The notes under the pieces were generated by a model, which saw only the letters and a list, made by a program, of their open reading frames with translations, did no database searches and was not told the DNA's origin. A stretch of 64,000 nt of DNA from Scilla litardierei. Lineage: Eukaryota; Streptophyta; Magnoliopsida; Asparagales; Asparagaceae. The translations under genes and the position numbers were made by a program. The first letter of the stretch is position 1. The number at the start of each line of letters is the position of its first letter. The DNA is taken from NCBI GenBank assembly GCA_030789695.1, contig CM061141.1, positions 170,204,807 through 170,268,806 of the forward strand, given 5' to 3'. Shown here in pieces: positions 30,714-55,980 of the stretch.

Positions 30714-30827
30714 CTAACAAGCAATTTAACAATCAAACCCTAGTCTAGAAAACAATCATGTTCAAGAAAACAACATAATCTAACAATCAAAACTAGCTAG
30801 GAAAGTAACAGCTAGATTGAGGATTAC
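30714..30827 (-). other. Putative 114-bp intron before the chromovirus protease
   Basis: On the minus strand it starts GTAATCCTCAATC and ends AATTGCTTGTTAG, T-rich throughout. Excision joins DEVIA to [17 protein letters not shown], giving a continuous protein across the gag-protease boundary. It contains in-frame stops. Confidence 0.6.
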
Positions 30828-31960
30828 CTGCGATAACCTCATCCACAGCCTCGCTCTCCACAGCGGTCATCAGAAAAGCCTACCTCCTCGGCGGAAAAGC
30901 CTGCTGAAAAGCCTGCCTCTATGGAACAAGAGCTGCTCTACGTCCAGCAGGAACAGACGCTCTCTGCCGCAACGGCTATGCTGCAACAGGTGCCTTCCAA
31001 GGCTGCTTCGACCTCGGACAATCCTTCATGGTATGGGTAGGATCTACAGAGACAACACACTGGCCCAGGAATCTCCTACACTGATCCTTGATATGCCCGA
31101 TCCTGCCGCAGAAATGGCAAGTCTTCTGAATAGGCCCTCCTGGCCTCTTGAACTGAACTGGCTGGTTAGGCTTGAAACGAGGCCTAACCACCGCCATGGC
31201 CTACTCCATAGGCCTCTTCCCAGCACCAAAAACATGTCCCCTCCTCTGGCTCAGGTTCAGCTCCTGCCTCCTCGCAGCGACCAGAATCTTCTGATAAGAG
31301 TCTAGATCAGAGGAAGACACAAAACTCTGAAGCTCCAAAGCAAGTCCCTGCAGGAACCTCTGAGCCCTCTCATAAACATCCTGCACCATCTTCGGTGCAA
31401 ACCGACTCAGCCTAGTGAACTCTTGGTGGTACTGGTCCACCGACGAGCTCCCTTGCTTCAGCTCAATAAAGCGTTGCAGCATCTCCTTCCTAGCAGCCTT
31501 CGGAAAGAACTCCTCATTAAACATGGACTTAAAAGTAGCCCAAGCTATCGGCTCCACCAACATCTTCTCTTCCGCATCCCACCAGTTCCGAGCATTATCC
31601 TTGAGTTGCCTCTTCGCCAAATCAACCCATCCAGCCGGGGTGATCTTGGCCATCTTCAAATTATCCTCTATGTTCCGAATCCACTCATCGGCAGCCAGAG
31701 GACCCTCAGATCCATCAAAATAAGCAGGACCCAGCTCCCGAAATTGCTTCGCTCACGGGTCGGAGCGAGGGGCATCCTGGATTGCCCGAGCAGCTCGAGC
31801 AAGTGGAGCATTCTGGACTTGCAGGAGCACGCCCTGCTGCACCTGCATCATCTGAAGCATCATCCGCATCATCTCTTCATTGGTGGGTTCCCGCTCAGGT
31901 CCTCGTCATGAGGGGGCGCACCACTACCACCACCACGGGTGAATCGCCTTCCTGCCATCT
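30828..31960 (-). pseudogene. gag: Chromovirus gag with zinc knuckle, nonsense-mutated
   Basis: A start at ATG 31959 (MAGRRFTRGGGSG) leads, after a frameshift near 31890, into NEEMMRMMLQMMQVQQ, then FRELGPAYFDGSEGPL, WIRNIEDNLKMAKI, LKDNARNWWD, FNEEFFPKAARKEMLQRFIE and LKQGSSSVDQYHQEFTRLSRF, the canonical retrotransposon gag core. The zinc knuckle is CHFCGRIGHIKDQC (C-X2-C-X4-H-X4-C) at about 31110. In-frame stops occur near 31753 (TGA), 31201 (TAG), 30975 and 30920 (TAG), the last ones at positions where CAG is usual. Ends at the putative intron at 30827. Confidence 0.82.

Positions 31961-35213: not shown

Positions 35214-35284
<71 letters not shown>
35214..35284. repeat. (TA)n microsatellite
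   Basis: About 71 bases of uninterrupted alternating T and A. It separates the Gypsy nest from the GC-rich region to the right. Confidence 0.97.
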
Positions 35285-35286
<2 letters not shown>

Positions 35287-35619
35287 GTAAAATGCGCCTG
35301 AGCTCGTGCTCAGATGGGATTCCTGCGCTCGACCCCTCCTGACCGTCTGATCCGATCCCACGGCTGTTGTTAAAAGCAGAAGATGAGGAACTTTTGGTGC
35401 AATTACCAACGGGCCCTTACGCGCCCGGAAATTTTGGGGCAATTACCATCCCGCCCTTATAACCCCTATGAAAGCAACTTTTTAGAACTATTGGTGCAAT
35501 TACCATCCCGCCCTTTATATCCTTTTCAAAGAAATAGTTTACACTATACGGCACCGTTGTGCGCGTCGACCCAGAACGGAGTATATTACTCCCCGCGAAC
35601 AACGCGCTACAGCCTATGC
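35285..35619. repeat. Flank of the CpG satellite with short tandem repeats
   Basis: Starts gggtaaaatgcgcctgagc. Between 35385 and 35520 a block of the form ttttggggcaattaccatcc occurs three times. The caattacc...cgccc theme resembles the gcaattt and attacccc parts of the satellite that follows, so this may be its diverged edge or a transposon end. No inverted partner was found on the right side of the region. Confidence 0.45.
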
Positions 35620-38600
35620 GTCGTGCGCGGCGTGGGATTAAAACGCACAAGTGTTGAGAAGTTACCAACCGTGCGCACGACGGGCAAAATTGCCCCCGTC
35701 GTGCGCGAGGGGGAAAACGCAACGTGTAAAGAAATTTCCATCCGTGCGCACGACGTGCAAAATAAACCCCGTCGTTCGTGGGGGTTAAAACGCCTAGTGT
35801 GAAGAAATTCACATCCGCGCGCACGACGGGCAACATTACCCACGTCGTGCGCGTGGGTTAAAACGCCTAGTGTGCAGAAATTTCCATCCGATCGCACGAC
35901 GGGCAAAATTAACCCCGTCGTCCGCGGGGGTTAAAACGCCTAGTGTGAAGAAATTCACATCCGCGCGCACGACGGGCAAACTTACCCCCGTCGTGCGCGT
36001 GAGTTAAAACGCCTAGTGTGCAGCAATTTCCATCCGAGCGCACGACAGGCAAACTTACCCACGTCGTGCGCGGGGGTTAAAACGCCTACTGTGTGAAGCA
36101 ATTTCCATCCGCGCGCACGACGGGCAAAATAACCCCCGTCGTGCGCGTCGCCCGCGGGGGTTAAAACGCACAAGTGTCGAGCAATTTCCATCCGCACGAA
36201 CGACGGGCAAAATTACCCCCGTCGTGCGCGTCGTGTGCGGGCAAACACACAAGTGTAGAGCAGTTTACAGCCGTGCGCACGACGGGCCAAATTACCCCCG
36301 TCGTGCACGTCGTGTGCGGGCAAACGCACAAGTGTGGAGCAGTTTACAGCCGTGCCCACGACGGGCCAAATTACCCCCGTCGTGCGCGAGGGGGAAAACG
36401 CAATCTGTAAAGCAATTTCCATCCGCGCGCACGACGGGCAACATTACCCACGTCGTGCGCGTGGGTTAAAACGCCTAGTGTGCAGAAATTTCCATCTGAT
36501 CGCACGACGGGCAAAATTAACCCCGTCGTCCGCGGGGGTTAAAACGCCTAGTGTGAAGAAATTCACATCCGCGCACACGACGGGCAAACTTACCCCCGTC
36601 GTGCGCGTGAGTTAAAACGCCTAGTGTGGAGCAATTTCCATCCGAGCGCACGACGGGCAAAATTACCCCCGTCGTGCGTGTCGTCCGCGGGGCTTAAAAC
36701 GCACAAGTGTCGGGCAATTTCCATCCGCGCACACGACGGGCAAAATAACCCCCTTCGTGCGCGTCGTGTGGCAAACGCACAAGTGTGGAGCAATTTACAG
36801 CCGTGCGCACGACGGGCCAAATTACCCCCGTCGTGCGCGAGGGGGAAAACGCAATCTGTAAAGCAATTTCCATCCGCGCGCACGACGGGCAAACTTACCC
36901 CCGTCGTGCGCGTGGGTTAAACGCCTAGTGTAGAGCAATTTCCATCCGCGCGCACGACGGGCAAACTTACCCCCGTCGTGCGCGGGGGTTAAAACGCCTA
37001 CTGTGTGAAGCAATTTCCATCCGCGCGCACGACGGGCAAAATAACCCCCTTCGTGCGCGTCGTGTGCGGGCAAACTCACAAGTGTGGGGCAATTTACAGC
37101 CGTGCGCACGACGGGCCAAATTACCCGCGTCGTGCGCGATGGGGAAAACGCAATCTGTAAGGCAATTTCCATCCGCGCGCACGACGGGCAAACTTACCCT
37201 CGTCGTGCGCGTGGGTTAAAACGCATAAGTGTGCCGCAATTTCCATCCGCGCGCACGACGGGCAAACTTACCCCCGTCGTGCGCGTCGTCCGCGGGGGTT
37301 AAAACGCACAAGTGTCGAGCAATTTCCATCCGCGTGCACGACGGGCAAAATTAACCCGTCGTGCGCGTCGTGTGCCGGCAAACGCACAAGTGGATATTAA
37401 TTTACAGCCGTGCGCACGACGGGCCAAATTACCCCGTCGTGCGCGAGGAGGAAAACGTTATATGTAAAGCAATTTCCATCCGCGCGCACGACGGGCAAAC
37501 TTACCCCCGTCGTGCGCGTGGGTTAAAACGCCTAGGGTGAAGAAATTTAAAACCGCGCACACGACGGGCAAAATTACCCCCGGCGTGCGCGTCCTGTGCG
37601 GGCAAACGCACAAGTGAGGAGCAATTTATAGCCGTGTGCACGACGGGCCAAATTACACCCGTCGTGCGCGAGGGGGAAAACGCAATCTGTAAAGCAATTT
37701 CCATCCGCGCGCACGACGGGCAAACTTACCCCCGTCGTGCGCGTGGGTTAAAACGCCTAGTGTGGAGCAATTTCCATCCGAGCGCACGACGAGCAAAATT
37801 ACCCCCGTCGTGCGCGTCGTCCGCGGGGCTTAAAACGCACAAGTGTCAGGCAATTTCCATCCGCGCGCACGACGGGCAAAATAACCCCCGTCGTGCGCGT
37901 CGTGTGGCAAACGCACAAGTGTGGAGCAATTTACAGCCGCGCGCACGACGGGCCAAATTACCCCCGTCGTGCGCGAGGGGGAAAACGCAATCTGTAAAGC
38001 AATTTCCATCCGCGCGCACGACGGGCAAACTTACCCCCGTCGTGCGCGTGGGTTAAAACGCCTAGTGTAGAGCAATTTCCATCCGCGCGCACGACGGGCA
38101 AACTTACCCCCGTCGTCCGCGGGGGTTAAAACGCACAAGTGTGCAGCAATTTCCATCCGCGCGCACGACGGGCAAAATAACCCCCGTCGTGCGCGTCGTG
38201 TGCGGGCAAACACACAAGTGTGGGGCAATTTACAGCCGTGCGCACGACGGGCCAAATTACCCCCGTCGTGCGCGATGGGGAAAACGCAATCTGTCAGGAA
38301 ATTTCCATCCGCTCGCACGACGGGAAAACTTACCCTCGTCGTGCGCGTGGGTTAAAACGCACAAGTGTGCAGCAATTTCCATCCGCGCGCACGACGGGCA
38401 AAAGAACCCCCGTCGTGCGCGTCGTCCGCGGGGGTTAAAACGCACAAGTGTCGAGCAATTTCCATCCGCGTGCCCGACGGGCAAAATTACACGCGGCGTG
38501 CGCGTCGTGTGCCGGCAAACGCACAAGTGGATATTAATTTACAGCCGTGCACACGACGGGCCAAATTACCCCCGTCGTGCGCGAGGAGGAAAACGCAATA

Positions 38601-41600
38601 TGTAAAGCAATTTCCATCCGCGCGCACGACGGGCAAACTTACCCCCGTCGTGTGCGTGGGTTAAAACGCCTAGTGTGAAGAAATTCAAATCCGCGCGTAC
38701 GACGGGCAAAATAACCCCCGTCGTGCGCGTCCTGTGCGGGCAAACACACAAGTGAGGAGCAATTTATAGCCGTGCGCACGACGGGCCAAATTACCCCGTC
38801 GTGCGCGAGGGGGAAAACGCAGTCTGTAAAGCAATTTCCATCCGCGCGCACGACGGGCAAACTTACCCCCGTCGTGCGCGTGGGTTAAACGCCTAGTGTG
38901 GAGCAATTTCCATCCGAGCGCACGACGGGCAAAATTACCCCCGTCGTGCGCGTCGTCCGCGGGGCTTAAAACGCACAAGTGTAGGGCAATTTCCATCCGC
39001 GCGCACGACGAGCAAAATAACTCCTGTCGTGCGCGTCGTGTGCGGGCAAATGCACAAGTGTGGAGCAATTTACTGCCGTGCGCACGACGGGCCAAATTAC
39101 CCCCGTCGTGCGCGAGGGGGAAAACGCAATCTGTAAAGCAATTTCCATCCGCGCGCACGACGGGCAAACTTACGCCCGTCGTGCGCGTGGGTTAAAACGC
39201 CCAGTGTGGAGCAATTTCCATCCGAGCGCACGACGGGCAAAATTACCCCCGTCGTGCGTTTCGTCCGCGGGGGTTAAAACGCACCAGTGTGCAGCAATTC
39301 ACATCTGCACGCAAGACGGGCAAAATAACCCCCATCGTGCGCGTCGTGTGCGGGCAAACGCACAAGTGTGGAGAAATTTACAGCCGTGCGCAAGACGGGC
39401 CAAATTACCCCCGTCGTGTGCGAGGGGGAAAACGCAATCTGTAAAGCAATTTCCATCCGCGCGCACGACGGGCAAACTTACCCCTGTCGTGCGCGTGGGT
39501 TAAAACGCCTAGTGTAGAGAAATTTCCATGCAAGCGCAAGGCGGACAAAATTAACCCCGTCGTCCACGGGGCTTAAAACGCACAAGTGTCGGGCAATTTC
39601 CATCCGCGCGCATGACTGGCAAAATAACCCCCGTCGTGCGCGTCGTGTGCGGGTAAACGCACTAGTGTGGGGCAATTTACAGCCAGGCGCACGACGGGCC
39701 AAATTACCCCCGTCGTGCGCGATGGGGAAAACGCAATCTGTAAGGCAATTTCCATCCGCGCGCACGACGGGCAAACTTACCCCCGTCGTGCGCGTGGGTT
39801 AAAACGCACAAGTGTGCAGCAATTTCCATCCGAGCGCACGACGGGCAAAATAACCCCCGTCGTGCGCGTCGTCCGCGGGGGTTAAAACGCACCAGTGTCG
39901 AGCAATTTCCATCCGCGCGCCCGACGGGCAAAATTACCCCCGTCGTGCGCGTCGTGTGCGGGCAAACGCACAAGTGTGGAGCAATTACAGCCGTGCGCAC
40001 GATGGGCCAAATTACCCCCGTCGTGCGCGAGGGGGAAAACGCAATCTGTAAAGCAATGTCCATCCGCGCGCACGACGGGCAAACTTACCCCCGTCGTGCG
40101 CGTGGTTTAAAACGCCTAGTGAGGAGCAATTTCCATCCGAGCGCACGGCGGGCAAAATTAACCCCGTCGTCCGTGGGGGTTAAAACGCACAAGTGTGCAG
40201 CAATTCACATCCGCGCGCACGACGGGCAAAATAACCCCCGTCGTGCGCGTCGTGTGCGGGCAAAGGTACAAGTGTTGAGCAATTTACTGCCGTGCGCACG
40301 ACGGGCCAAATTACCCCCGTCGTGCGCGAGGGGGAAAACGCAATCTGTAAAGCAATTTCCATCCGCGCGCACGACGGGCAAACTTACCCCCGTCGTGCGC
40401 GTGGTTTAAAACGCCTAGTGAGGAGCAATTTCCATCCGAGCGCACGGCGGGCAAAATTAACCCCGTCGTCCGCGGGGGTTAAAACGCACAAGTGTGCAGC
40501 AATTCACATCCGCGCGCACGACGGGCAAAATAACCCCCGTCGTGCGCGTCGTGTGCGGGCAAAGGCACAAGTATTGAGCAATTTACTGCCGTGCGCACGA
40601 CGGGCCAAATTACCCCCGTCGTCGCGAGGGGGAAAACGCAATCTGTAAAGCAATTTCAATCCGCGCGCACGACGGGCAAACTTACCCCCGTCATGCGCGT
40701 GGGTTAAAACGCCCAGTGTGGACAATTTCTATCCGATGCGCACGACGGGCAAAATTACCCCCGTCGTGCGCGTCGTCCGCGGGGGTTAAAACGTACCAGT
40801 GTGCAGCAATTCACATCCGCGCGCACGACGGGCAAAATAACCCCCATCGTGCGCGTCCTGTGCGGGCAAATGCACAAGTGTGGAGCAATTTACAGCCGTG
40901 CACACGACGGGCCAAATTACCCCCGTCGTGCGCGAGGGGGAAAACGCAATCTGTAAAGCAATTTCCATCCGCGCGCACGACGGGCAAACTTACCCCTTCG
41001 TGCGCGTGGGTTAAAACGCACAAGTGTGCAGCAATTTCCATCCGCGCGCACTACGGGCAAAACAACCCCCGTCGTGCGCATCGTCCGCGGGGGTTAAAAC
41101 GCACAAGTGTCGAGCAATTTCCATCCGCGTGCCCGACGGGCAAAATTACACGTGTCGTGCGCGTCGTGTGCCGGCAAACGCACAAGTGGATATTAATTTA
41201 CAGCCGTGCGCACGACGGGCAAAATTACCCCCGTCGTGCGCGAGGAGGAAAAAGCTTCCATCCGCGCGCACGACGGGCAAACTTACCCCCGTTGTGCGCG
41301 TGGGTTAAAACGCCTAGTGTGAAGTAATTCAAATCCGCGCGCACGACGGGCAAAATAACCCCCGTCGTGCGCGTCCTGTGCGGGCAAATGCACAAGTGAG
41401 GAGCAATTTACAGCCGTGCGCACGACTGGCTAAATTACCCCCGTCGTGCGCGAGGGGGAAAACGCAGTCTGTAAAGCAATTTCCATCCGCGCGCACGACG
41501 GGCAAACTTACCCCCGTCGTGCGCGTGGGTTAAACGCCTAGTGTGGAGCAATTTCCATCCGAGCGCACGATGGGCAAAATTACCCCCGTCGTGCGCGTCG

Positions 41601-42480
41601 TCCGCGGGGCTTTAAACGCACAAGTGTCGGGCAATTTCCATCCGCGCGCACGACGGGCAAAATAACCCCCGTCGTGTTGTCGTGTGCGGGCAAACGCACA
41701 GTGTGGATATACATCCGTGCACACGACAGGCCAAATTACCCCCGTCGTGCACGAGGGGGAAAACGCAATCTGTAAAGCAATTTCCATCCGCGCGCACGAC
41801 GGGCAAACTTACCCCCGTCGTGCGCGTGGGTTAAAACGCCTAGTGTGGAGCAATTTCCATCTGAGCGCACGACGGGCAAAATTACCCCCGTCCTGCGCGT
41901 CGTCCGCGGGGCTTAAAACGCAAAAGTGTCGGGCAATTTCCATCCACGCGCACGACGGGCAAAATAACCCCCGTCGTGTTGTCGTGTGCGGGCAAACGCA
42001 CAGTGTGGATATACATCCGTGCGCACGACGGGCCAAATTACCCCCGTCATGCGCGAGGGGGAAAACGCAATCTGTAAAGCAATTTCCATCCGCGCGCACG
42101 ACGGGCAAACTTACCCCCGTCGTGCGCGTGGGTTAAAACGCCTAGTGTGGAGCAATTTCCATCCGAGCGCACGACGGGCAAAATTACCCCCGTCGTGCGC
42201 GTCGTACGCGGGGGTTAAAACGCACCAGTGTGCAGGAATTCACATCCGCGCGCACGACGGGCAAAATAACCCCTCTCGTGCGCGTCGTGTGCGGGCAAAC
42301 GCACAAGTGTGGAGCAAATTACAGCCGTGCGCACGACGGGCCAAATTACCCCCGTCGTGCGCGAGGGGGAAAACGCAATCTGTAAAGCAATTTCCATCCG
42401 CGCGCACGACGGGCAAAATTACCCCCGTCGTGCGCGTCGTCCGCGGGGCTTAAAAAGCACAAGTGACAAGTGTGGTGAAA
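35620..42480. repeat. CpG-rich palindromic satellite with four-monomer higher-order repeat
   Basis: About 6.9 kb, roughly 90 monomers of 71-84 bases. Each has gcaatttccatccg, then a palindromic core gcgcacgacggg / cccgtcgtgcgc around a short AT spacer. Four linkers alternate: ggttaaaacgcctagtgtgg, cttaaaacgcacaagtgtcg, gcaaacgcacaagtgtgg and gggaaaacgcaatctgtaaa. The last recurs about every 297-309 bases from 36840 on, giving a unit of about 300-310 bp. Extremely CpG dense. Long stop-free frames on both strands result from GC content and periodicity and are not genes. Confidence 0.92.
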
Positions 42481-42662
42481 TTTCCATACGAAGGTAGCAA
42501 TATGGGTAAACATATCTTTTAATTTCTTACAACAAGTGATTATTTTGCACAAAACCTAACATCAATTTTATACAGAATTTTTTTCAATATCAACATTCTT
42601 GTTGTACCTTTTTACTCGGTGACGTGCATTATAATCTCTCAATGATCCATCTCCATTCCCAG
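42481..42662. other. Satellite-hairpin spacer
   Basis: AT-rich, 180 bases, no gene. The last part (42647-42662) already matches the gene exon used in the following inverted repeat. Confidence 0.5.
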
Positions 42663-43102
42663 CTACTGCCCCTCATCGGAATGGCCCTCGACATATTTAG
42701 CAGCTTGATGGTTGTGCCTGCCTGCAACGCCTGTTAACCTTCACTCCTCACCGCCAACGCCGACGCCCACCATTACCATGCAATGAGAACAGACATTGAC
42801 ACTTCTTGGTTTTAACTGGCCTGTCGGTCGTTTTTTCCTTTCGGTGTCACCTGTAAACCCCGCTTCTTTCACATGCAAAGTTTACTTTGCATGTGAAAGA
42901 AGCGGGGTTTACAGGTGACACCGAAAGGAAAAAACGACCGACAGGCCAGTTAAAACCAAGAAGTGTCAATGTCTGTTCTCATTGCGTGGTAATGGTGGGC
43001 GTCGGCGTTGGCGGTGAGGAGTGAAGGTTAAGAGTCGTTGAGGGCAGGCACAACCATCAATCTGATAAATATGTCGAGGGCCATTCCGATGAAGGGCAGC
43101 AG
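42663..43102. repeat. Near-perfect inverted repeat made from the FAR1-OTU zinc-finger exon
   Basis: Two arms of about 219 bases (42663-42881 and 42884-43102) separated by two bases, with roughly nine mismatches and no indels by eye. The left arm matches the plus strand of 57815-58030, part of the zinc-finger coding region of the minus-strand gene 56587-58208. The right arm reads in the sense direction of that gene. A transcript through it would fold into a long hairpin with homology to the gene's mRNA. The arms themselves hold no open frame for the domain. Confidence 0.88.
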
Positions 43103-43680
43103 GAATCCTATCGGAAGTTTTACATGCAAAGCGACAACATTCTTGAAGGTGCATTTTGGTTGCGAAGTTAGACTGATTTCATTGGAGTCATCTTCTACCG
43201 CCATCACATTCTCTTTACAGGCATCTACATCATGAAGGAAATGGTCCACGACTCCACATTGAAATAGCAGGAGTAACTTTCAATTTTATCTTCCATTTAC
43301 CATGGTATATTTCTACATCAAGCAGAACGAAGCAATGGTTAGAATTTGTCCGGTTAAACTGAGAAACAAATATATTGTAAGAAAAATATGTAGAATACCG
43401 TGGCTATACGAGGAAGATCCGAGAAGAAGAATACTTGGCAGATGTAATTGAAACCGCTGAGGTGCGACCTCGGTGGTAGTTGCCGGTTGCTCCCAAAGGT
43501 TAACACAGCAGCCCCTGGCCGCGTCCACACTTGGCCAGAGACTTTGGATTTTGCAGAGTATAGCTACCCAGGAGAACGGGATGATGCACAGAAGAATATT
43601 TGGAGGAAGCAGTTTTTCCGTGTATTTTCTTGAGGAAAGCAGTGGGATATAAATAGAATTCAAAAAATAGCTGTTATGAA
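43103..43680. other. Possible captured fragments, unassigned
   Basis: 43103-43270 and 43440-43635 have codon-like composition and short open frames (for example RVHTWPETLDFAEYSYPGER on the plus strand at about 43529), but no family is recognised. They may be pieces of host exons carried by the transposon. Confidence 0.3.
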
Positions 43681-45380
43681 TTCAAACGGTGAAATATTAA
43701 ACGAGTATTAAAATAGGCTTTGAATGATGCGTATTAAAGCGAGGCTTTAACTGCGTATTTATTGAGAGGTTTTGAATGCTGCAATCAAATTAGCAGTTAC
43801 CAACATTTTAGAATGAGACGCCATTTATTATAGACGATTTGGACTGCCCATGGATGAGGATGAGACTACAGTTGATTTACTGTGAGTAATGGAAAGAACC
43901 CGTGAGTCTACAGTTGTTGAGCTCGTGAATATACAGTATATACAGATGTTGCAGTGTGAGTAATTTTTGAGGGTAATGTCAAACACAAAGCGAAATTTTT
44001 GAGGGCGTTCACGGTCAATTTATAGTGAAATTGACCATTCAAATTGATGAGTATAAGTCCGTTATCCTACAGCGATCCCTTCATTGCAAACATCTACGTA
44101 GACAATCATATGTATCAGTTTGTAAGAGCATAGGCTAATGAATCAGTTTGTGTCTGTATCAGTATGTACATCAATATAGTTGAATTCGATTGAATATGCC
44201 TTCAGCTTGCATAAGTATCAGATTTAATTTTAAAGTTTGCATGTAGTTTCTGAGTCAGAGTGAATAAGTATCCGGTTTAATCTACAATGTTTCCAGATTG
44301 AACAAGTATAATAAGACTTAAATCTAAAAGCTTGCATGTAGGCTTGATTGGGATTCAGAATAAGTATGATTAAATATATTCCCGTGGTCGTGTTGAGAAA
44401 ATTTGTCATCGATGAAACATCAGCTTAACGCGCACAACGAGTAAATTCTGCTGGTTGTGCGCGTTAAACAATTGTCCATAAAATACCTTAGATGCTCAAA
44501 GCGAACAGCTGGCTCTGGCTGTGCTTGTTGTGCACTTTGCGCAATTAAAGTAACCAATATAAATATCATCAACGCGCACAACGGCCATAAATTAGTTGGT
44601 TCTGGGCGTTGAGCAATTATGTAGCGGCTATTAATTTTTCCAGCCCACGTCCCACCGACCGGTCAAACATTCTTGAGAAATGCACATGTCTGGTATCAAT
44701 CAGCTGTAGATTTACGAACAGTCTTTTGTATATTCACGAGAACCCCTCAGTTTGTAAGAGCATAGGGCCATAGGCTAATGAATCAGTTTGGATCTGTATC
44801 AGTAATTCAGTATGTATATCAATATATTTGAATGGCTGGGTAATTTTCAAAATGTCATCAATTTGAATATGTATGAGATTTAATCTATAATTTTGCATGC
44901 AGTTTATGAAGTCGATTGAATATGCCTTCAGATTGAAAAGGTATCAGATTTATTTTTAAAGTTTGTATGTAGTTTCTGAGTCAGAGTGAATAAGTATCCG
45001 GTTTAATCTACAATGTTTTCAGATTGAACAAGTATAATAAGACTTAAATCTAAAAGTTTGGATGTAGGCGTGGTTGGGATTCAGAGTAAGTATGATGAAA
45101 TTTGGAATTTGATTGATTCACTACGGTGGCGCGCAGTGGGAGTAAACTTATAGCATCTCACAAATATGATCAAAGAGCAAAACGGTCAAATTTATTCCCG
45201 TGGGGGCGTTGAGCAAATTTGTCATTGACGCAACTATAGAGCTTAACGCGCTAAACGGGCATAATTCTGCATGTTGTGCGCTTTGCGCAATTATGTTAGC
45301 CATAACAAATTTGAGAACGCGCACTCCGGCTCAAAGTGAACACCTGGCGATACTTGTTTCTGCATACATTGTTAACCTAA
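43681..45380. repeat. Transposon modules with gcgcacaacgg/gttgtgcgc motifs
   Basis: Two copies of a roughly 300-bp module (about 44098-44370 and 44750-45100) starting catatgtatcagtttgtaag and containing aagtatccggtttaatctac. Between and after them are short inverted motifs of the form gcgcacaacgg...gttgtgcgc next to gagcaatt. No gene. The same modules recur at about 47250, 49300, 52430, 54330 and 55720. Confidence 0.7.
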
Positions 45381-46340
45381 TACATTGTTTTTGCATGAAA
45401 GAAAACTATAAATAATATTATTCTTCAATGTTAATTTTTTTAATTTTTAAGTATTTAGTATTTCTTGTAATGTTGTAAATATTTTAAAATTTGCTCGAAA
45501 AATATCCAATATTGGTCTCAGGTAGTATGTATAATTGAGATATTTCCATCGGTTCTAAACTTATTAAATTTGGTCATGTGCCTTGTAAAATACATTTGTA
45601 ATAAATAGCCGTTACCAAGCTATGACGGTAATAAACGCAACGAAGGGCTGATATCAATTATCCGTTGTGCGCGTCGTGCGCGGTGGTTAAAACTCATAGT
45701 GTGAATCAATATCCATCCGCTGTACACACACGGTCTCACATCTGAGGACTCCACAATCCACATTACACACAAGGGCTTATAGTGGAACCAATTAAACCGC
45801 ACTCACAACAGAAACAATTTGATTGTTTTTGATGCGCTGGAAAATAAATAATTTTTCGAGTGTTCGACGGAGAGTAATTCAAGGCGCAAAACGGTTCGGT
45901 ATCCTTGTCCTGTGGGGAGAGTAAATTGCCTCTTTTTCAGCTGAGCCTAAAATACTTAGGATTACGCGTTTTTCTCGGTGGGATTACGTGTTGAGTAAAT
46001 AAGATGTTCATTCCCGAGATCCTTAGCATTACTCTAGGATAACGGACTTAATACTCATCAATTTGATCGGTCGTTTTTCACTATAAATGGACCGTGAATG
46101 CCGTGAAGGCCCTGGAGAAGCGTATGAAATCGGAGGCCTACAGGCTGATGCAGTCGCCTCCCGAATATGCTTCTCTCCCTGGTCTGCGAAGAGAAGAATG
46201 GCCCCCCGGGCCTTTGCGCCCTGGTTGGCTGCTCTGGGTCAATTAGGTTGGCGGTGCATGGCTACCGTCTCTCTGAGGCACAAGCACTCCCTTCTGTTCT
46301 TTTCGATCTCTTGGCTCGCAGCCAAATTGGGCAAATATGA
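45381..46340. repeat. Segmental duplication unit, copy 1, first part
   Basis: Matches 50520-51450. Contains one stand-alone copy of the CpG satellite monomer (45661-45720: gcgtcgtgcgcgg, ggttaaaactcatagtgtg, aatcaatatccatccgc). No functional gene seen. Confidence 0.75.
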
Positions 46341-46682
46341 CTGTGGATGAAGCAGATCATAATTGTCCCTTTCCTCCTGGGGATTTCCAATTTTGGCTGC
46401 GAGCCAAGAGATCGAAAAGAAGAGGAGGGGGTGCTTGTGCCTCAGAGGGCCGGTAGCCATGCACCGCCAACCTATGTGACCCAGTGCAGACAGCCAGGGT
46501 GCAAAGGCCAGGGGGGCCATTAATCTCTTCGCACTTCGCAGACTAGGGATTGGAGCATATTCGGGAGGCGACATCATCAGCTTGTAGTCCTCCGATTTCA
46601 TACGCTTCTCCAGGGCATTCACGGTCCATTTAGTGTGAAATTGACCATTCAAATTGATGAGTATACTCAGTTATCCTACAGC
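46032..46682. repeat. Long inverted repeat 2
   Basis: Left arm 46032-46328 and right arm 46388-46682 flank a spacer of about 59 bases. The arms contain gaatgcc...ctggagaagcg, tatgaaatcggagg, cgcctcccgaatatgc and gatctcttggctcgcagcc. The arm sequence is exon-like (the frame includes LEKRMKSEAYRLMQSPPEY), of unknown origin. A single-orientation copy is at 51180-51450. Arms are roughly 85% identical. Confidence 0.75.
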
Positions 46683-47039
46683 GAGCCCTAATGCCTGACG
46701 CTTACAGTAGAAATGGACGATGGAATTCAACCAGTTATCTTTTCACGTAAAGCTAAATGGTTGCTGTTGGAAACTTACGCAATGGTGGTAATAAACGCAA
46801 CGAAGGGCTATCGTCCATTTATAAACATGCATGCCCGATGAATGCCTTCCATATGTGAGCATTTCGCCTTCCACTCCTCGACTATACACTCCATATCCAT
46901 CTCCTCTTTATAAACTCCATCCAAACCATTAAATCCTTCATCATTTCACTATACCTCGTCTATGACACACAAACACTCCCTCCTGTTCTTTCCGATCGCG
47001 AAGATAAAAAGCTCATTCTATTTGTTATGCAACCATTTG
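46683..47039. other. Unassigned transposon-internal sequence
   Basis: No recognised gene. Contains acgcaacgaagggct and taataaacg blocks shared with other modules. Confidence 0.4.
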
Positions 47040-48475
47040 GTGTTGTTCGACGCCTCATGTGAATCGGAGTTCCTCGGTGTCTTTGAAACGGCTACATACC
47101 CGACTGCAGGTTACACCGACGCATGCTATGACTACACTCATAGCCAGCCGATGATGGCAGAAAATCGGCAACGACGGTAATAAACGGAACGAAGATGGTC
47201 GCCCGGTGAACTCGCGGAAGTTGACGGGGAAGCACGCAGATCACACCGACAATCACATGTTTCAGTTTGTAAGAACATAGGCTAATGAATCAGTTTGGAT
47301 CTGTATCAGTATGTACATCAATATATTTGAATGGCTGATCATTTTCAAAATAACATCAACTAGAATATGTACGAGACTTAATCTACACTTTACCTAAACA
47401 CGCACAACGGGCATAATTCTGCTGGTTGTGCGCGTTAAGTATGATGAAATTTGGAATGTGATTGATTCACTGCGCTGGTGCGAGCACTGCGAGGTGGAAT
47501 TAAAATTATAGCATCTCACAAATATGCTCAAAGCGCAAAACGGTCAAATTTATTCCCGTGGGGGGTTGAGCAAATTTGTCATCGACGCAACTATAGAGCT
47601 TAACGCGCACAACGGTCATAATTCTGCATGTTGTGCGCTTTGCGAAATTATGTTAGCCATAACAAATTTGCTGAACGCGCACACCGGGTCAAAGTAACCA
47701 TCTGGCAATCTTGTTGTGCGCTTTGAGCAAATTTTTAAACCATTAAAAATTTGCTAACCGCGCACAACGGCCAAAATATTAATTTTGCCAGCTCACTTGC
47801 CACTGGTCATACATTCTTGGGAAAATCATTTGTCTGGTATCAATCAGCAGTAGATTCAGGAGCAGTATTTTCTTATTCACGAGCACCCTTCTGTAGCTTG
47901 ACGGGGTCTTCGATGTAGCCACACAGTTAATATGGTACTGCAGCAGTCACATCCTCATTGACCCATCTGCGTTGTGCGCATTGAGCAATTCCCCTTTTCC
48001 ATGCGTTTTGCGCGAGAATCAATTATAATAGTTTCTCTCTTCTGTATTATTTAGCCGGGGTGCGTGTCGAATAAAATGTATTAAAAAATCTTAGTGGAGA
48101 GCAGTATTGTCGGGAGTAATTTTCCTATTAGCATCAATGTTGATCCAGGCGAAAAATCGTTGAGTTTCCTTGTTATGCGCGGAGAGTAATTAACCAATTT
48201 TGATCCAGATGCTAAAATAATTGGGATTACGAGATTTTCGCGTTGGTATTCCGCGGTTTGCGCGTTGAGTAAATAATTGTTGATTCCCGAGATCCATTGC
48301 ATTACTGTAGGATCAAGGACTTATTATACGCTTCATTTTGATTGCTCCAATTCCCCTATAAAATTGGCGGACAAGGAGCACTCATCTTCTCACAAGTTCA
48401 TCTACTTTCTTCCATCATCTTCTTCTTTATTTGCCCCCACAACCTTCCTATTGAAACAGTAAGTCCTTCAGCTGT
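47040..48475. repeat. Segmental duplication unit, copy 1, second part
   Basis: Almost collinear with 52210-53642 and very similar; the section from about 47950 to 48475 is nearly identical to 53110-53642. A third, partial copy of 47780-48345 lies at 49760-50355. Contains several gcgcacaacgg/gttgtgcgc motifs. Confidence 0.82.
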
Positions 48476-48486
48476 TCGTGCATGCT

Positions 48487-48533
48487 TGATATAGATATCA
48501 GATATTGCTATCAAGCATGCACGATAGCATTCA
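48487..48533. repeat. Short inverted repeat
   Basis: gtgcatgcttgata and its complement tatcaagcatgcac face each other around about 17 bases. Confidence 0.7.
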
Positions 48534-48967
48534 TTCAGCTGTTCGTCCATTTATAATCAGGGATTCCCGAAAAAGGGTTTCCATATGACCGTCCCCGAAA
48601 CTGGGCACCCAGGTCAACCGCCCAAGAAGTACTGATCAGGGGGACATAACCAGCACATTGTGTCAAGTATGATACATACTTGACAGCCGGTTACGACGAC
48701 GCGTGCAATGACGACACTCCTATCATGTTTCACTGTTGCCGACAGTCGGCAACGACGATAATAAACGTAACGACGATGGTCGACCGAGGTAACTAGATGG
48801 TTATAGATTGTTATGGACGCCTCCCCCAAGCTTTTTAACAGTTCATTTTTTGCTTTTAGCGATCGAGGATCATCTCATCCTTCTTAAGATCATCGAACTT
48901 TGTCCGCTCCTTCGGAATACCCTTCAAGATTGAAGCACGAACAACGTCCTCGGGCCCAGGAAGTATC
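48534..48967. other. Unassigned sequence with a recurring module
   Basis: The part at about 48663-48785 (cttgacagccggttacgac, gcaatgacgacactcc, taataaacgtaacgacg) recurs in variant form at about 47090-47200, 52260-52380 and 55450-55560. No identified product. Confidence 0.45.
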
Positions 48968-49147
48968 GAAATTACAGTAACCATTGATCCAGACGTTCTA
49001 GAATGCTTCGTTGGATGCGAGCCGTTGCGCCCGCCAATGTTCCAGGTTCAAAAACATGGATTTTTGAACCTGGAACATAGGCGGGCGCAAGGGCTCGCAT
49101 CAAACGAAGCAGTCTAGAACGTCTGGATCAATGGTTACAGTAATTTC
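48968..49147. repeat. Long inverted repeat 3
   Basis: Arms 48968-49054 and 49061-49147 around the six-base loop catgga, only a few mismatches. The outer part (ccattgatccagacgttcta; gggctcgcat) is related to the F-box-like fragment at about 54110-54165 (ctcgcagccaatgaagc; gggatcgatggtta). Confidence 0.82.
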
Positions 49148-50519
49148 ACCATATTCCCACTCGATTGTTCTTCATTTTCTTATTCAATTTGGATTCGAAC
49201 CAAGAGATCGAAAACAAAAGGAGGGATTGCTGTTGCCTCAGAGGGACGGTAGCCATGCACCGCCAACCTATGTGACCAAGGGCCGCCATCCAGGCTTAAT
49301 CATATGTATCAGTTTGTAAGAGCATAGGCTAATGAATCAGTTTGGATCTGTATCAGTCTGTATGTACAGCAATATATTTGAATGGCTGGTTAATTTTCAA
49401 AATGTCATCAATTTGAATATGTATGAGATTTAATCTATAATTTTGCAAGCAGTTTGTGAATTCTATTGAATATGCCTTCAGATTGAAAAGGTATCAGATT
49501 TATTTTTAAAGTTTGTATGTAGTTTCTGAGTCAGAGTGAATAAGTATCCGGTTTAATCTACAATGTTTTCAGATTGAACAAGTATAATAAGACTTAAATC
49601 TAAAAGTTTGGATGTAGGGTTGGTTGGAATTCAGACTAAGTATGATGAAATTTGGAATTTGATTGATTCACTGCGGTGGCGCGCAGTGGGAGTAAACTTA
49701 TAACATCTCACAAATATGCTCAAAGCGCAAAACGGGCAAATTTTTGGTACTGAACGTTGAGCCCTTATGTAACGGCTATAAATTTTTCCACCTTACTTGC
49801 CACCGGTCATAAATTCTTGGGAAAATCATATGTGTGGTATCAATCAGCTGTAGATTCAGGAGCAGTATTTTCTTATTCACGAGCACCCTTCTGTAGCTTG
49901 ACGGGGTCTTCGATGTAGCCACACAGTTAATATGGTACTGCAGCAGTCACATCCTCATTGACCCATCTGTTTTGCACGCATTGAGCAATTCCCGTTTTCC
50001 ATGCGTTTTGCGCGGTGATCAATTATAATGTTTTCTCTCTTCTGTATTATTTAGCCCGGGGTGCGTGTCGAATAAAATGTATTAAAAAATCTTAGTGGAG
50101 AGTAGTATTGTCGGGAGTAAGTTTCCTATTAGCATCAATGTTGATCCAGGCGAAAAATCGTTGAGTTTCATTGTTATGCGCGGAGAGTAATTAACCTATT
50201 TTGATCCAGATGCTAAAATAATTGGGATTACGAGATTTTCGCGTTGGTATTCCGCGGTTTGCGCGTTGAGTAAATAATTGTTGATTCCCGAGATCCATTG
50301 CATTACTGTAGGATCAAGGACTTATTATACGCTTCATTTTGATTGCTCCAATTCTATATAGCAACTCCACCACAAATCTCTAAAAACCCCCTTTCAAAAT
50401 GGAATATCTCTAAAAGATGCTATTTTTGAGGATGGGCAACTCCAACCCACCATCTTCAAATCCTATTTTTTCTTTGTTTAAGCTTTACTAATGAAAAATA
50501 TTTATCGTTATAATGTGTT
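49148..50519. repeat. Transposon modules, third partial copy
   Basis: 49300-49720 repeats the catatgtatcagtttgtaag module; 49760-50355 repeats 47780-48345. Then about 160 bases of AT-rich unique sequence. No gene. Confidence 0.7.
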
Positions 50520-51450
50520 AATCTAATACATTGTTCCTGGCACTCCTACTTGAAAGAAAACTATAAATAATATTATTCTTCAAGGTTAATTTTTTTTAAT
50601 TTTTAAGTATTTAGTATTTCTTGTAATATTGTAAATATTTTAAATTTGCTCGAAAAATATCCAATATTGGTCTCATGTAGTAGGTATAATTGAGATATTT
50701 CCATCGGTACTAAAATTATTAACTTTGGTCACGTTATTTGTAAAATACATTTGTAATAAATAGCCGTTACCAATCCATGACGTTAATAAACGCAACAAAG
50801 GGCTGATATCAATTAGCCGTCGTGCGCGTCGTGCGAGGTGGTTAAAAGTCATAGTGTTAATCAATATCCAACCGCTGTACACACACGGTCTCACATATGA
50901 GGACTCCACATTACACACAAGGGCTTATAGTGGAACCAATTAACTCGCACGCACAACAGAAACAATTTGATTGTTTTTGTTGCGCTTGAAAATAAATAAT
51001 TTTTCGAGTCTTTGCCGGAGAGTAATTCAAGGCGCAAAACGGTTCAGTTTCCTTGTCGTGTGGGGAGAGTAAATTGCCTCTTTTTCAGCTGAGCCTAAAA
51101 TACTTAGGATTACTCGTTTTTCTCGGTGGGATTACGCGTTGAGTAAATAAGATGTTCATTCCCGAGATCCCTAGCATTACTGTAGGATAAATGGATCGTG
51201 AATGCCGTGAATGCCCTGGAGAAACGTATGAAATCGGAGGACTACAGGCTGATGCAGTCGCCTCCCTAATATGCTTCTCTCCCTGGTCTGCGAAGAGAAG
51301 AATGGCCCCCCGGGCCTTTGCGCCATGATTGGCTGCTCTGGGTCAATTAGGTTGGCGGTGCATGGGTACCGTCTCTCTGAGGCACAAGCACTCCCTCCTT
51401 TCTTTTCGATCTCTTGGCTCCCAGGCAAATTGGCCAATTCTGACTGTGGA
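50520..51450. repeat. Segmental duplication unit, copy 2, first part
   Basis: Homologous to 45381-46340, offset about 5.1 kb. Holds a second stand-alone satellite monomer at about 50815-50875. The exon-like segment 51180-51450 is present in one orientation only. Confidence 0.75.
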
Positions 51451-51840
51451 TAAAGCAGATCATAATTGTCTCATAATGCAGAAGCTGGAAGCCTGGAACC
51501 TGTGCGGAAAGACAAAAGGCATGGTTGTCTCAGATTTCCAGAAAATCAAATGATGTGAAGAGTCACACATCCATTTCCTCGTCCGAACAGATGATGGTGA
51601 TGATGCTCAAGTAAAGCGACAGAAATTACAAAACGAGCAGGGAAGTGACTGTAATGACACGCCAATGACGGCATGTCGCGCCTTTGAACTATTTGAATTG
51701 GAAAATGTTTTGAACTATTTGAGTCTTTGGATAATTATCGGAGGAAGCCATCTTATGAACACCTTTCCTTGTGTATGCGTGTGCGGAGGCCCATGTCCAG
51801 TAGTGCACATATCATATTTGTCTCTTATACTGGTCTCTTA
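51451..51840 (+). other. Host-derived sequence before the BRCT-like exon
   Basis: Contains a short open stretch (CLIMQKLEAWNLCGKTKGMV) and ends in a pyrimidine-rich tract and ttacag, which looks like an intron end before the next fragment. No family assigned. Confidence 0.3.
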
Positions 51841-51843
51841 CAG

Positions 51844-52115
51844 GCGGTGAAGATCTTCTCTGGATTAAGCTTTTACTTCACCGATCAGTTCGAGCCTCCT
51901 TAAAGGGGCTTCCTCGAAAAGGTGGATCTAGCTGCCGGTCGAACCGGCCGGATGAATGTTGACCAGGTGATGGACGCATCAAATGCCAGTGTGTTCTCCG
52001 TAGGATCCGCCTTCATTGTCTACAACGAAGATCCTCCACGTACGTGCGCCTTAGCAGATCTTGAGGAGGTTGTAACGAAGAGATGCGACGAGGTTGGGGC
52101 CGCATGCAGGGTTTA
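51844..52115 (+). pseudogene. Captured BRCT-like fragment (BRCA1/BARD1-type)
   Basis: After a splice-acceptor-like ctcttacag the frame reads AVKIFSGLSFYFTDQFEPP, a stop, RGFLEKVDLAAGRTGRM, then SVGSAFIVYNEDPP and LEEVVTKRCDEVGAACRV, ending at a stop. The spacing F-GL-FYF-F then L..LI.AAGG then FIVY/EPP fits the last BRCT domain of plant BRCA1/BARD1 proteins, which bind phosphorylated partners in DNA repair. It lacks the rest of the gene and has an internal stop, so it is a captured exon of no function. Alternative: an unrelated domain with chance resemblance. Confidence 0.5.
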
Positions 52116-52209
52116 GTAGTCTCTTACTGGAACACATCGCTGCATGCAGTTCTGCATCTGAGCTTGTAAGTTGTTCAAAGACCAGCGGTGTCTAGTATTT
52201 TGATCTGTT
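52116..52209. other. Spacer after the BRCT-like fragment
   Basis: No feature recognised; may be the end of the captured segment. Confidence 0.3.
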
Positions 52210-53642
52210 GGTGTTGTTCGACGCCTCATGTGAATCGGAGTTTCTCTAGGTGTCTTTGAAACGGCTACATACCCGACTGCAGGTTACACCGACGCATGCT
52301 ATGACTACACTCATAGCCAGCCGATGATGGCAGAAAATCGGCAACGACGGTAATAAACGGAACGAAGATGGTCGTCCGGTGAACTCGCGGAAGTTGACGG
52401 GGAAGCACGCAGATCACACCGACAATCACATGTTTCAGTTTGTAAGAGCATAGGCTAATGAATCAGTTTGGATCTGTATCAGTATGTACATCAATATATT
52501 TGAATGGCTGGGTCATTTTCAAAATAACATCAACTAGAATATGTATGAGACTTAATCTACACTTTACCTAAACGCGCACAACGGGCATAATTCTGCTGGT
52601 TGTGCGCGTTTAAGTATGATGAAATTTGGAATGTGATTGATTCACTGCGCTGGTGCGAGGTGGAATTAAAATTATAGCATCTCACAAATATGCTCAAAGC
52701 GCAAAACGGTCAAATTTATTCCCGTGGGGGGGTTGAGCAAATTTGTCATCGACGCAACTATAGAGCTTAACGCGCACAACGGTCATAATTCTGCATGATG
52801 TGCGTTTTGCGAAATTATGTTAGCCATAACAAATTTGCTGAACGCGCACACCGGGTCAAAGTGACCATCTGGCGATACTTGTTGTGCGCCTTGAGCAAAT
52901 TTTTAACCATTAAAAATTTGCTAACCGCGCACAACGGCCAAAATATAAATTTTGCCAGCTCACTTGCCACTGGTCATACATTCTTGGGAAAATCACATGT
53001 CTGGTATCAATCAGCAGTAGATTCAGGAGCAGTATTTTCTTATTCACGAGCACCCTTCTGTAGCTTGACGGGGTCTTCGATGTAGCCACACAGTTAATAT
53101 GGTACTGCAGCAGTCACATCCTCATTGACCCATCTGCGTTGTGCGCATTGAGCAATTCCCGTTTTCCATGCGTTTTGCGCGAGAATCAATTATAATAGTT
53201 TCTCTCTTCTGTATTATTTAGCCCGGGGTGCGTGTCGAATAAAATGTATTAAAAAATCTTAGTGGAGAGTAGTATTGTCGGGAGTAATTTTCCTATTAGC
53301 ATCAATGTTGATCCAGGCGAAAAATCGTTGAGTTTCCTTGTTATGCGCGGAGAGTAATTAACCAATTTTGATCCAGATGCTAAAATAATTGGGATTACGA
53401 GATTTTCGCGTTGGTATTCCGCGGTTTGTGCGTTGAGTAAATAATTGTTGATTCCCGAGATCCATTGCATTACTGTAGGATCAAGGACTTATTATACGCT
53501 TCATTTTGATTGCTCCAATTCCCCTATAAAATTGGCGGACAAGGAGCACTCATCTTCTCACAAGTTCATCTACTTTCTTCCATCATCTTCTTCTTTATTT
53601 GCCCCCACAACCTTCCTATTGAAACAGTAAGTCCTTCAGCTG
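52210..53642. repeat. Segmental duplication unit, copy 2, second part
   Basis: Partner of 47040-48475, with nearly identical sequence over the last 530 bases. Confidence 0.82.
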
Positions 53643-53744
53643 TTCGTTGAAGGCGAAATCCTCACATCTGGAAACCCTTTTTCGGGCATGCCTGATTATA
53701 AATGGACGAACAGCTAAATGAATGCTATCGTCCATATCAGATAT

Positions 53745-54215
53745 CTATATCATGCCCGTTACTCTGTGGTGTCTCTTGCCGAAGATGAAAGAACTCACCC
53801 TCAGACGGATACCCTGCACAACAACGACGTTTTCAATCTTGTCATGCTTGCTGAATAGCTGCCCGAACCTGGAGGATCTAGTCATTGGAGTAAGTTCAAA
53901 TTTTCTAATTATTTCCTCTGAATAATTCAAAACTACGTATGTATGTATGATGGCATTAAGCATTCTGTTTTGTTACCATGATGAAATGTTTGATTTTCCA
54001 GACCCGGAAGCTTCAGCGCTAGAATACTGGGATCAGCAGATGCCTTCGGATTGCATGACAAATACGCTGAGCACGGTAACTGTAAACGTGGTCGATGTAC
54101 ACCGCAAGGGCTCGCAGCCAATGAAGCATTCGAGAACCTCGGGATCGATGGTTACACGAATTTCGCCTTTTTCCGTATTCCGACGCGATTGTTCTTCATT
54201 TTATTCTTCAATTTG
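53745..54215 (+). pseudogene. Captured F-box/LRR-FBD-like fragment with retained intron
   Basis: The first exon-like part reads LWCLLPKMKELTLRRIPC and FSILSCLLNSCPNLEDLVIG, the LRR end typical of plant F-box/FBD proteins, which select substrates for ubiquitination. A donor gtaagttc at 53890 and an acceptor gattttccag ending at 54001 bound a 112-bp intron-like segment. The next part reads PEASALEYWDQQMPSDCM and NTLSTVTVNVVDV, like the FBD region (YW...PFDC...LKTVKI). No start, no F-box and the frame does not join cleanly, so it is a non-functional captured piece. Confidence 0.6.
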
Positions 54216-55980
54216 GATGCGAGACAAGCGATCGAAAAAAACAGGAAGGAGTGCTTGTGCCTCAGAGCCAGAGGGACAGTAGCCATCCACCGCCAACCTA
54301 TGTGACCAAGGGCCGCCATCCAGGCTTAATCATATGTATCAGTTTGTAAGAGCGTTTGGGTCTGTATCAGTATGTACATCAATATAGTTGAATTCGATTG
54401 AATATGTCTTCAGATTGGTTGTGCGCGTTAAACCATTGTCTATAAAATACCTTAGATGCTCAAAGCGAACACATGTTAAAGCGCACAACGACTCAAAGCG
54501 TCTACACCTGTAGTTTCTTGTTGTTCGCTATGAGCAATTATTTAAACCATTAAAAATTTGCTCATCGCGCACAACGGCCATAAATTTGTTTGTTCCTACC
54601 TTTGTGCAATTATGTTAGCGGCTATTAATTTTTCCAGCTCACCTCCCACCGGCCGGTCAAACATTCTTGAGAACTGCACATGTCTGGTATCAATCAGGTG
54701 TAGATTGACGTGCAGTCTTTTGTATATTCACGAGAACCCCTCCTGTACCATGACGGGGTCTTCGATGGAGCCACACATTAACTCTACTTCGGTCGCATCC
54801 TCATAAACCAATACAAATCGCTGCCATGCTTTGTGCGGTGTGCGCCTTGAGCAATTCCATTTTACCATGCGTTTTGCGCGGTGAGCAATTCTGATTGTTA
54901 GTTTGTTACTCGATCCTGTATTATTTAGCACGGTGTGCGCGTCGAATAAAATGTTTTAGTATTGTTGGGAGTAATTTTCCAATTGGCATCATTGTTGATC
55001 AAGGCGAAAAACCGTTTAGTTTCATTTTGATTGGTCCAATTACCCTATAAATTGGCGGACAAGGAGCCCTCATCTTCTCACAACTTCCTCTAATTTCTTA
55101 TATCATCTTCTTCTTTTTGCCCACACAACCTCCGTCTGGAAACAATAAGGTCTTCTTTTGTTCGAGCATGATGCATGAGGTATAAATGGAGGAGATGGAG
55201 ATGGATATGGGGTGTAAAGATGAGATGGTTTTCTACTGTTCGGGCCTGATGCTTGAGATAAAAATGGACGATAGAATTCAACCAGTACTTTTTTCACGCA
55301 TTCACATGGAACGGCCATCTCCTCTTTTACACTATCTTCTCCTCCATCCCCTTCATATTTGTACTATAGATCCTCTATTTATAACGAACCATGTGTTGGT
55401 GTTCACCGCCTCTTGGCAATCGGAGTTTTTTTCGGTGTCTTTGAACCGTCGTCATACTTGACAGCCGGGTACAAGGACGCCTGCAATGACGACACTCTTA
55501 TAAGGGCTACGGTGGCAGATAGTTGGCAAACACGTCCATAAACTCAACGAAGATGGTCGCTTTGTTGCGTTAGTTAACGTCGTTGCCTACTTACGGCAAC
55601 CGTAGGCAGGATAGGAGTGTCGTCATTGCAGGCGTCGTTGTAGGTTGAAGCACGCAGATCACGCCGACAATAGATCCGGTAAAAAGCACCTTCATTGCAA
55701 ACATCTTACGAAGACAATCATATGTATCAGTTTGTAAAGAGCATGGGGTAATGAATATGTTTTGTTCTGTATCAGTATGTACATCCATATAGTTGAAAGG
55801 CGGGGTCATTTTGAAAATGTCATCAATTGGAATATGTCTGAGATATAATCTAAAAATTTTCAATCAATATACGAAGTCGATTGAATATATGTAGCCGATT
55901 TACTCTAAAATGTCTTCAGATTGATTATGTATCAGAGATAATCTAAAAGTTTGCATGTAAACAAGTTAATTTTATCATAG
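54216..55980. repeat. Transposon modules, mixed
   Basis: Copies of earlier modules (54330-54420, 54600-54990, 55380-55560, 55710-55950), including gcgcacaacg and gcgcgtcgaataaaatg blocks. No intact gene. Several short frames only. Confidence 0.6.

Follow-up and report, generated by a model that had tools for sequence, protein, structure and literature searches.

An inverted FAR1 pseudogene duplication carried as an internal hairpin by a giant MULE-type element in Scilla litardierei

That hairpins made from duplicated transposase genes can set off transposon silencing is textbook knowledge, the best-known example being maize Mu killer. A long inverted repeat lies within a 64,000-nucleotide stretch of Scilla litardierei contig CM061141.1 (hereafter "the window"), and a first-pass annotation, made from the sequence alone, had read it as a Mu killer-like locus directed against the FAR1-OTU gene of its own transposon. 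The locus raises the question of whether this hairpin is such a silencer, where its arms came from, and what, if anything, it does for the DNA that carries it.

The hairpin and its copies across the genome

The hairpin in the window consists of three parts:

42663–42881, minus strand (antisense on the plus strand): left arm, a FAR1 pseudogene segment
42882–42883, no strand: loop of the window copy, 2 nt
42884–43102, plus strand (sense on the plus strand): right arm, an inverted copy of the left-arm segment

Each arm measures 219 nt, with nine mismatches and no gaps between them (95.9% identity) and 2 nt separating them, in agreement with the arms of about 219 bases, identity of about 96% and 2-base loop initially annotated. 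All nine mismatches fall within the outer 117 nt, leaving the inner 102 nt identical between the arms (p = 0.003 by chance). The anticipated capacity of this stretch to form a long hairpin is confirmed by its predicted RNA fold of −425.3 kcal/mol, which is 42 SD lower than that of 100 dinucleotide shuffles (−143.1 kcal/mol, sd 6.7). As both the arm match and the fold energy lie far beyond chance, the inverted repeat is real. The gap between the arms is 5 nt in all 21 other copies aligned, indicating that 3 nt have been lost from the loop of the window copy; other loop lengths occur in a few copies elsewhere in the genome, as seen in the hairpin-centre pattern search described below.

Fold-back artefacts are typically near-perfect palindromes whose loops are tiny, and the window copy has exactly this form, as would be expected if a fold-back read or a false duplication had entered the sequencing or assembly. 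However, the same junctions are present in copies on different contigs, arm substitutions are common to several copies, and the asymmetric flanks match a hairpin-free relative, leaving an artefact with a next to negligible probability.

Copies were sought in the window's own assembly (3.68 Gb). A hairpin-centre pattern of 16+16 exact bases with 0–20 bases between them was found at 145 exact places genome-wide, and the reversed-pattern control was found at none. A left-arm search gave 1310 first-look candidates; the 40 of these that were scored contained 79 matches, almost all of which were adjacent inverted pairs. An exact 25-mer from the arm, including a TGA, occurred 295 times on each strand; among the first 100 places listed, 64 formed 32 inverted pairs 80–83 bp apart and the other 36 were single by exact match, some of these being hairpins with a changed other arm while the rest may be lone arms. 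Twenty further copies (L009–L028) were fetched, and all 20 have both arms. Their right flanks are 98.3–99.7% identical to that of the window, extending over the full 2.88 kb in 18 of the 20 (shorter in L017 and L020), and array-type sequence lies on the left in 19 (the exception being L024). Truncated or rearranged copies among those fetched are L012, L016, L017, L020, L024, L027 and L028. In L020, the hairpin centre has been inverted with respect to the right flank, which is what recombination between the two arms would produce, and an internal deletion in L027 joins window positions near 47240 and 62205.

The 145 exact centres, together with the common flanks of the fetched copies, place the hairpin as an internal part of a repeated element. 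A unique killer locus separate from the transposon is ruled out by these centres and by the position of the fetched copies inside the element itself.

The source of the arms and the formation of the inverted duplication

Both arms are FAR1-type sequence in translation (tblastn with the FAR1 ORF, best arm match E = 8e-14), and they carry an in-frame TGA and a frameshift. The first-pass annotation had derived them from the exon at 57815–58030 of the FAR1-OTU gene. The arms align to this minus-strand gene at 57822–58030 with 81% identity, gapped, sharing no 21-mers and having a longest exact run of 18 nt; with respect to the identity expected of a Mu killer-type target, they are not near-identical to the FAR1-OTU gene of the window, although a closer intact gene may exist elsewhere in the genome. 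The differences are spread over codon positions 1, 2 and 3 as 12, 15 and 14 for the left arm and 14, 14 and 14 for the right arm, and this even spread suggests that most of the divergence built up without coding constraint. With 81% identity and no 21-mer in common, the gene at 57.8 kb is a relative of the arms and not their template, so that direct derivation from it is ruled out and the source is instead a degenerate FAR1 paralogue similar to the locus L046.

The arm 25-mer in non-TGA form occurs at 19 genomic places by exact pattern (17 with GGA, 2 with AGA), and no inverted partner of it was found at these 19 places by exact pattern. L046 (651 bases), the one hairpin-free relative read out of the 19, is a FAR1 pseudogene without the hairpin that has the frameshift of the arms and lacks their TGA. 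It is 92.8% identical to the right arm and 91.3% identical to the left arm with its flank (window copy), and 73.8% identical to the FAR1-OTU gene. A consensus built from 22 copies (the window, L002 and L009–L028) aligns to the reverse complement of L046 in the order 2–117 and 193–448 forward, 453–227 inverted, and 456–478 forward. The pseudogene sequence on the two sides of the hairpin in the window is as follows:

42531–42660, minus strand: FAR1 pseudogene remainder left of the hairpin, matching L046 535–650 (83%) and 431–459 (93%)
43103–43123, minus strand: antisense FAR1 pseudogene resuming past the right arm, a 21-nt match (95%) to L046 174–194, 23 nt in the consensus

This forward–inverted–forward order relative to L046 indicates that the inverted copy was made locally, within a pseudogene lying in antisense orientation. 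As the switch back occurs at a short similarity (AGGAAT versus AGGGAAT), template switching is the probable mechanism, judging from the junction sequences. DNA synthesis would have run through the pseudogene and then switched onto the other strand, copying about 220 nt backwards, before a second switch near the microhomology allowed synthesis to continue from a point a few bases ahead. In the consensus, the arms pair at 214 of 219 positions and differ at the other 5, and single copies have 3–9 mismatches; since these differences are already in the consensus, the hairpin is older than the amplification of the family. Amplification of the element would then have distributed the finished hairpin to 145 places or more.

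A young MIRNA-type gene, born from the inverted duplication of a protein-coding target, would likewise begin as an inverted copy of a gene in the family it is predicted to target. Such a gene is extremely improbable here, as the stem is very long and near-perfect and shows no indication of one processed duplex, the copy number is high, and searching the 64-kb window for known RNA families gave no Rfam match at gathering thresholds. We consider it likely that the inverted duplication was born in a degenerate antisense FAR1 copy within a large MULE and was spread by the amplification of that element, hitchhiking along with it.

The carrier: a giant MULE-type element

The main features of the carrier in the window, beginning at its insertion site, are listed here:

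35214–35284, no strand: (TA)n microsatellite, insertion site, 71 bp (Tandem Repeats Finder)
35285–35640, plus strand: left end of the MULE-type element (GGGTAAAATGCGCCTGAGC...), starting directly after the (TA)n
35619–42437, plus strand: tandem array of 6.8 kb, units of ~73 bp, higher-order periods of 146 and 302–308 bp, palindromic core
46032–46681, no strand: second long fold-back, about 650 nt
48968–49147, no strand: third hairpin, arms of 87 nt, 94% identical
55470–55642, no strand: fourth hairpin, arms of 83 nt, 77% identical
56587–58226, minus strand: FAR1-OTU gene, frame interrupted in the window copy
59482–62298, plus strand: FAR1-MULE-OTU open frame, 938 aa (MULE PF10551 E = 1.8e-12; FAR1 E = 2.7e-7)

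The left end is matched over 355 or 356 of its 356 bases at 98–100% in all 40 places scored (of 1477 first-look candidates). Another copy, L041, lies on a different contig and starts at the identical base, preceded by a (TA)n of its own; its flank is unrelated, and the homology ends at the TA tract. On contig C11, L037 agrees at 98.8% with positions 61953 to 65953, which span the last part of the window and the sequence following it. With the element compared in parts, this gives a length of at least about 30.7 kb for the window copy. The hairpin shares its repeat domain with the FAR1-MULE-OTU gene and with the FAR1-OTU gene, the latter annotated at a distance of about 15 kb; this distance is 15.1 kb in the window versus 23.3 kb on C11.

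With regard to terminal inverted repeats and a 9-bp target duplication, the left end is located, and the TA tract masks any duplication; the right end was not found in the 19.7 kb beyond the window (to 83.7 kb). Element ends are flanked by (TA)n at the three sites read, namely the window, L041, and the back-to-back ends at C12:201525. The last of these, L045 (C12:201525020–201525620), contains a single (TA)n tract in which two related element ends stand back to back, with 72 bp at 89% identity between them, and its second end is matched at 89–94% by 39 others of the 40 places scored. This TIR-like end, which belongs to a wider set of places, could not be paired with the window element. To the left of the element, the remains of gag and pol of a Ty3-type retrotransposon are found on the minus strand at 28459–31752 (best protein matches 70–73%).

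Judged by its PF10551 match, the 938-aa FAR1-MULE-OTU frame is the probable transposase of the element, of MULE/mudrA type. Its C-terminal OTU-like part has E = 5e-4 and scores 21.0 bits, just under the curated 23.3. The FAR1-OTU gene, in divergent orientation to this frame, has an AFT match of 30.8 bits (above the cut-off), a FAR1 match of 24.7 bits (below the 28.1 cut-off) and an OTU match of 15.9 bits (E = 0.019, below the curated 23.3), and a domain search found no MULE transposase domain in it. The OTU-like parts of the two genes are 40% identical and conserve D-G-N-C and N-N-H-F, which we take to be OTU marks; with these motifs conserved and the scores below cut-off, the OTU name is probable, not proven. 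Only one of the eight copies of the FAR1-OTU gene examined, the window's included, has an open frame, of 540 aa. A 428-bp piece of this gene is matched at about 100% in all 40 places scored of 1654 first-look candidates, identities to this gene and to the left end together spanning 98–100%, and the element has apparently been amplified recently.

Four large fold-backs, the FAR1 hairpin included, lie between 42.4 and 56 kb, and three further ones in the same element are more than a single accident would lead one to expect. The second fold-back is present in 18 of the 20 fetched copies (absent in L017 and L020, partial in L028). Outside the tandem array, the remaining window contains only weaker fold-backs and a TA tract. 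The units of the array are built on the palindrome CGCGCACGACGGGCAAAATTACCCCCGTCGTGCGCG, pieces of which recur at 45.66–45.72 and 50.82–50.85 kb. Repeated units of ~1–1.4 kb in one orientation occupy 44100–55960, and three such units (48356, 53524 and 55045) share the core CTATAAA(A)TTGGCGG, resembling tandem promoters with fragments or fold-backs after them. A coding-like fragment at 51838–52116, inside the element, looks by eye similar to a BRCT domain, a likeness for which Pfam and PDB gave no support. A TATA-like heptamer at 44024 on the minus strand, detected in a crude heptamer scan, faces the FAR1 hairpin from 0.9 kb; the sequence in which it lies is related to that flanking the second fold-back. 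We treat this heptamer as a lead and not as a promoter.

Silencing potential and relation to known systems

The capacity of the hairpin to produce silencing RNAs was assessed by scoring predicted antisense 21-mers. At a score of ≤3, 49 of 199 left-arm and 37 of 199 right-arm 21-mers fit the FAR1-OTU gene, and none of the 21-mers from 20 left-arm shuffles fitted this gene at ≤4. The transposase frame was fitted by only 1 of 199 per arm at ≤4. The best fit was to L046, with 171 of 199 (left) and 166 of 199 (right) at ≤3, including 33 and 63 exact matches. On these scores the hairpin, were it transcribed, could supply siRNAs against members of the pseudogene family and, to a weaker degree, against the accessory FAR1-OTU gene. 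Read-through transcription of any copy would give long dsRNA, and a role as dsRNA source is plausible on these predictions; the siRNAs would fit the pseudogene family best and FAR1-OTU in part. The proposed targeting of the FAR1-OTU gene by siRNAs is thus retained as a tolerant match, and the transposase frame is hardly touched.

These predictions bear directly on the proposal of a Mu killer-like system, in which a separate, rearranged derivative would produce a hairpin transcript silencing the active element in trans. There is indeed a long, near-perfect hairpin capable of forming dsRNA, built within the same family from an exon of FAR1-type DNA-binding sequence, and its 21-mers fit the FAR1-OTU gene where those of the shuffled left arm do not. 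However, the hairpin is repeated at its many exact centres as part of the element in all 20 fetched copies, its arms come from a pseudogene with only 81% identity to the FAR1-OTU gene and no common 21-mer, and few matches to the transposase ORF were found. As chemistry, then, the proposal is partly supported; as a system it lacks support in its single locus, its source gene and its targeting of the transposase, and a killer acting in trans is very unlikely.

Selection for pairing was examined in the arms of the 22 copies, where substitutions were counted per copy and site and are not independent events. None of the 59 arm substitutions was compensated on both sides, 37 break a pair and five leave a G-U; 17 fall at sites already mismatched in the consensus, of which 16 restore a pair. 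With none of the 59 compensated, there is no visible upkeep of pairing among the copies. Diversity is 0.004–0.020 in the arms, overlapping that of the flanks (0.007–0.024), and three of the four arm segments are low in diversity (0.004–0.008). The flank at 43103–43400 is conserved to the same degree as the arms. Heavy methylation is expected to leave an excess of C-to-T changes. Transitions account for 16 of the 59 arm changes and 40 of the 135 flank changes, and with so few transitions there is no C-to-T excess of this kind.

A more elaborate possibility is a self-limiting RNAi module, in which the hairpin is kept since partial silencing of the transposon's own FAR1-OTU genes or of rival relatives benefits the transposon. 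It would account for the retention of the hairpin at 145 exact places from an ancestor with near full pairing (214 of 219), for the four large fold-backs in one element, for the fit of most 21-mers to L046, and for the TATA-like heptamer facing the hairpin. Against it stand the lack of compensated substitutions among so many that break a pair, the equal conservation of the neighbouring flank, the crude nature of the heptamer scan, which showed no known promoter, and the fact that L046, the one close relative read, is itself a pseudogene. We regard such a module as unlikely. An equally improbable, bolder version is that a giant MULE has internalised an RNAi hairpin from its own FAR1-OTU family as a dose-dependent brake or as a weapon against related elements. 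If this were true, the number of hairpins would rise with copy number, and the remaining three fold-backs would add to the modules of this kind.

Most likely, the hairpin has at present no role of its own and travels as a passenger, one that may contribute to silencing the family in general. Counting against this passive reading are the identity of the inner 102 nt in the window copy and the low diversity of three of the four arm segments, for which selection or conversion could be the alternative cause, as well as the heptamer at 44024 facing the hairpin and the three additional fold-backs.

Mu killer in maize is described as a deleted and duplicated derivative of MuDR that contains mudrA in inverted form over about 1.3 kb, together with two copies of TIRA; this inverted duplication of a MULE gene is proposed as a source of hairpin RNA (PMC3440606). 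Two short antisense transcripts were reported in silencing plants, and longer hairpin-forming transcripts were given only a possible further part (PMC3440606). In the Scilla hairpin, too, part of a MULE gene is present as a long inverted duplication. It differs in having 219-nt arms made of a FAR1 pseudogene segment, in its 145 exact centres and in its position inside the element, and it lacks three of the Mu killer features tested (a single locus, identity to the active gene, and transposase or TIR content).

As in the MuTAnT/TAFT elements, the element end adjoins (TA)n and a MULE transposase is encoded. MuTAnT elements are MULEs targeting TA microsatellites, with an autonomous Medicago element of 4873 bp and 90% of members at 200–300 bp (PMC4486113), whereas the window element, at its length of at least about 30.7 kb, also carries FAR1-OTU genes, a tandem array and hairpins. 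It resembles Pack-MULEs and giant transposons in being a MULE with extra fragments, to judge here from its repeats and gene-like pieces. The Pack-MULEs of Jiang et al. 2004 included none above 7 kb, according to a review (PMC6431247), and the window element is far larger and encodes its own probable transposase. Long MULE TIRs have been linked to siRNAs through the fold-back of inverted repeats in read-through RNA (PMC6446971); unlike those fold-backs, the hairpin here is internal and comes from a gene segment, not from TIRs. Among the titles and abstract openings of the open-access literature on OTU-bearing MULEs, giant MULEs, hairpin or inverted-duplication MULE siRNAs and hairpin self-regulation, no like case was found. 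An internal, gene-derived fold-back amplified along with its element is a new twist.

The carrier is notable in its own right, as a MULE that reaches a length of about 30 kb or more and has both FAR1-MULE-OTU and FAR1-OTU genes. In this case, a hairpin comparable to the classical silencing trigger sits inside a transposon and has been copied more than 100 times, which raises the question of whether a trigger of its own silencing can be carried by a transposon and tolerated. As the hairpin is part of the transposon and present in so many copies, this question is directly testable with small-RNA data.
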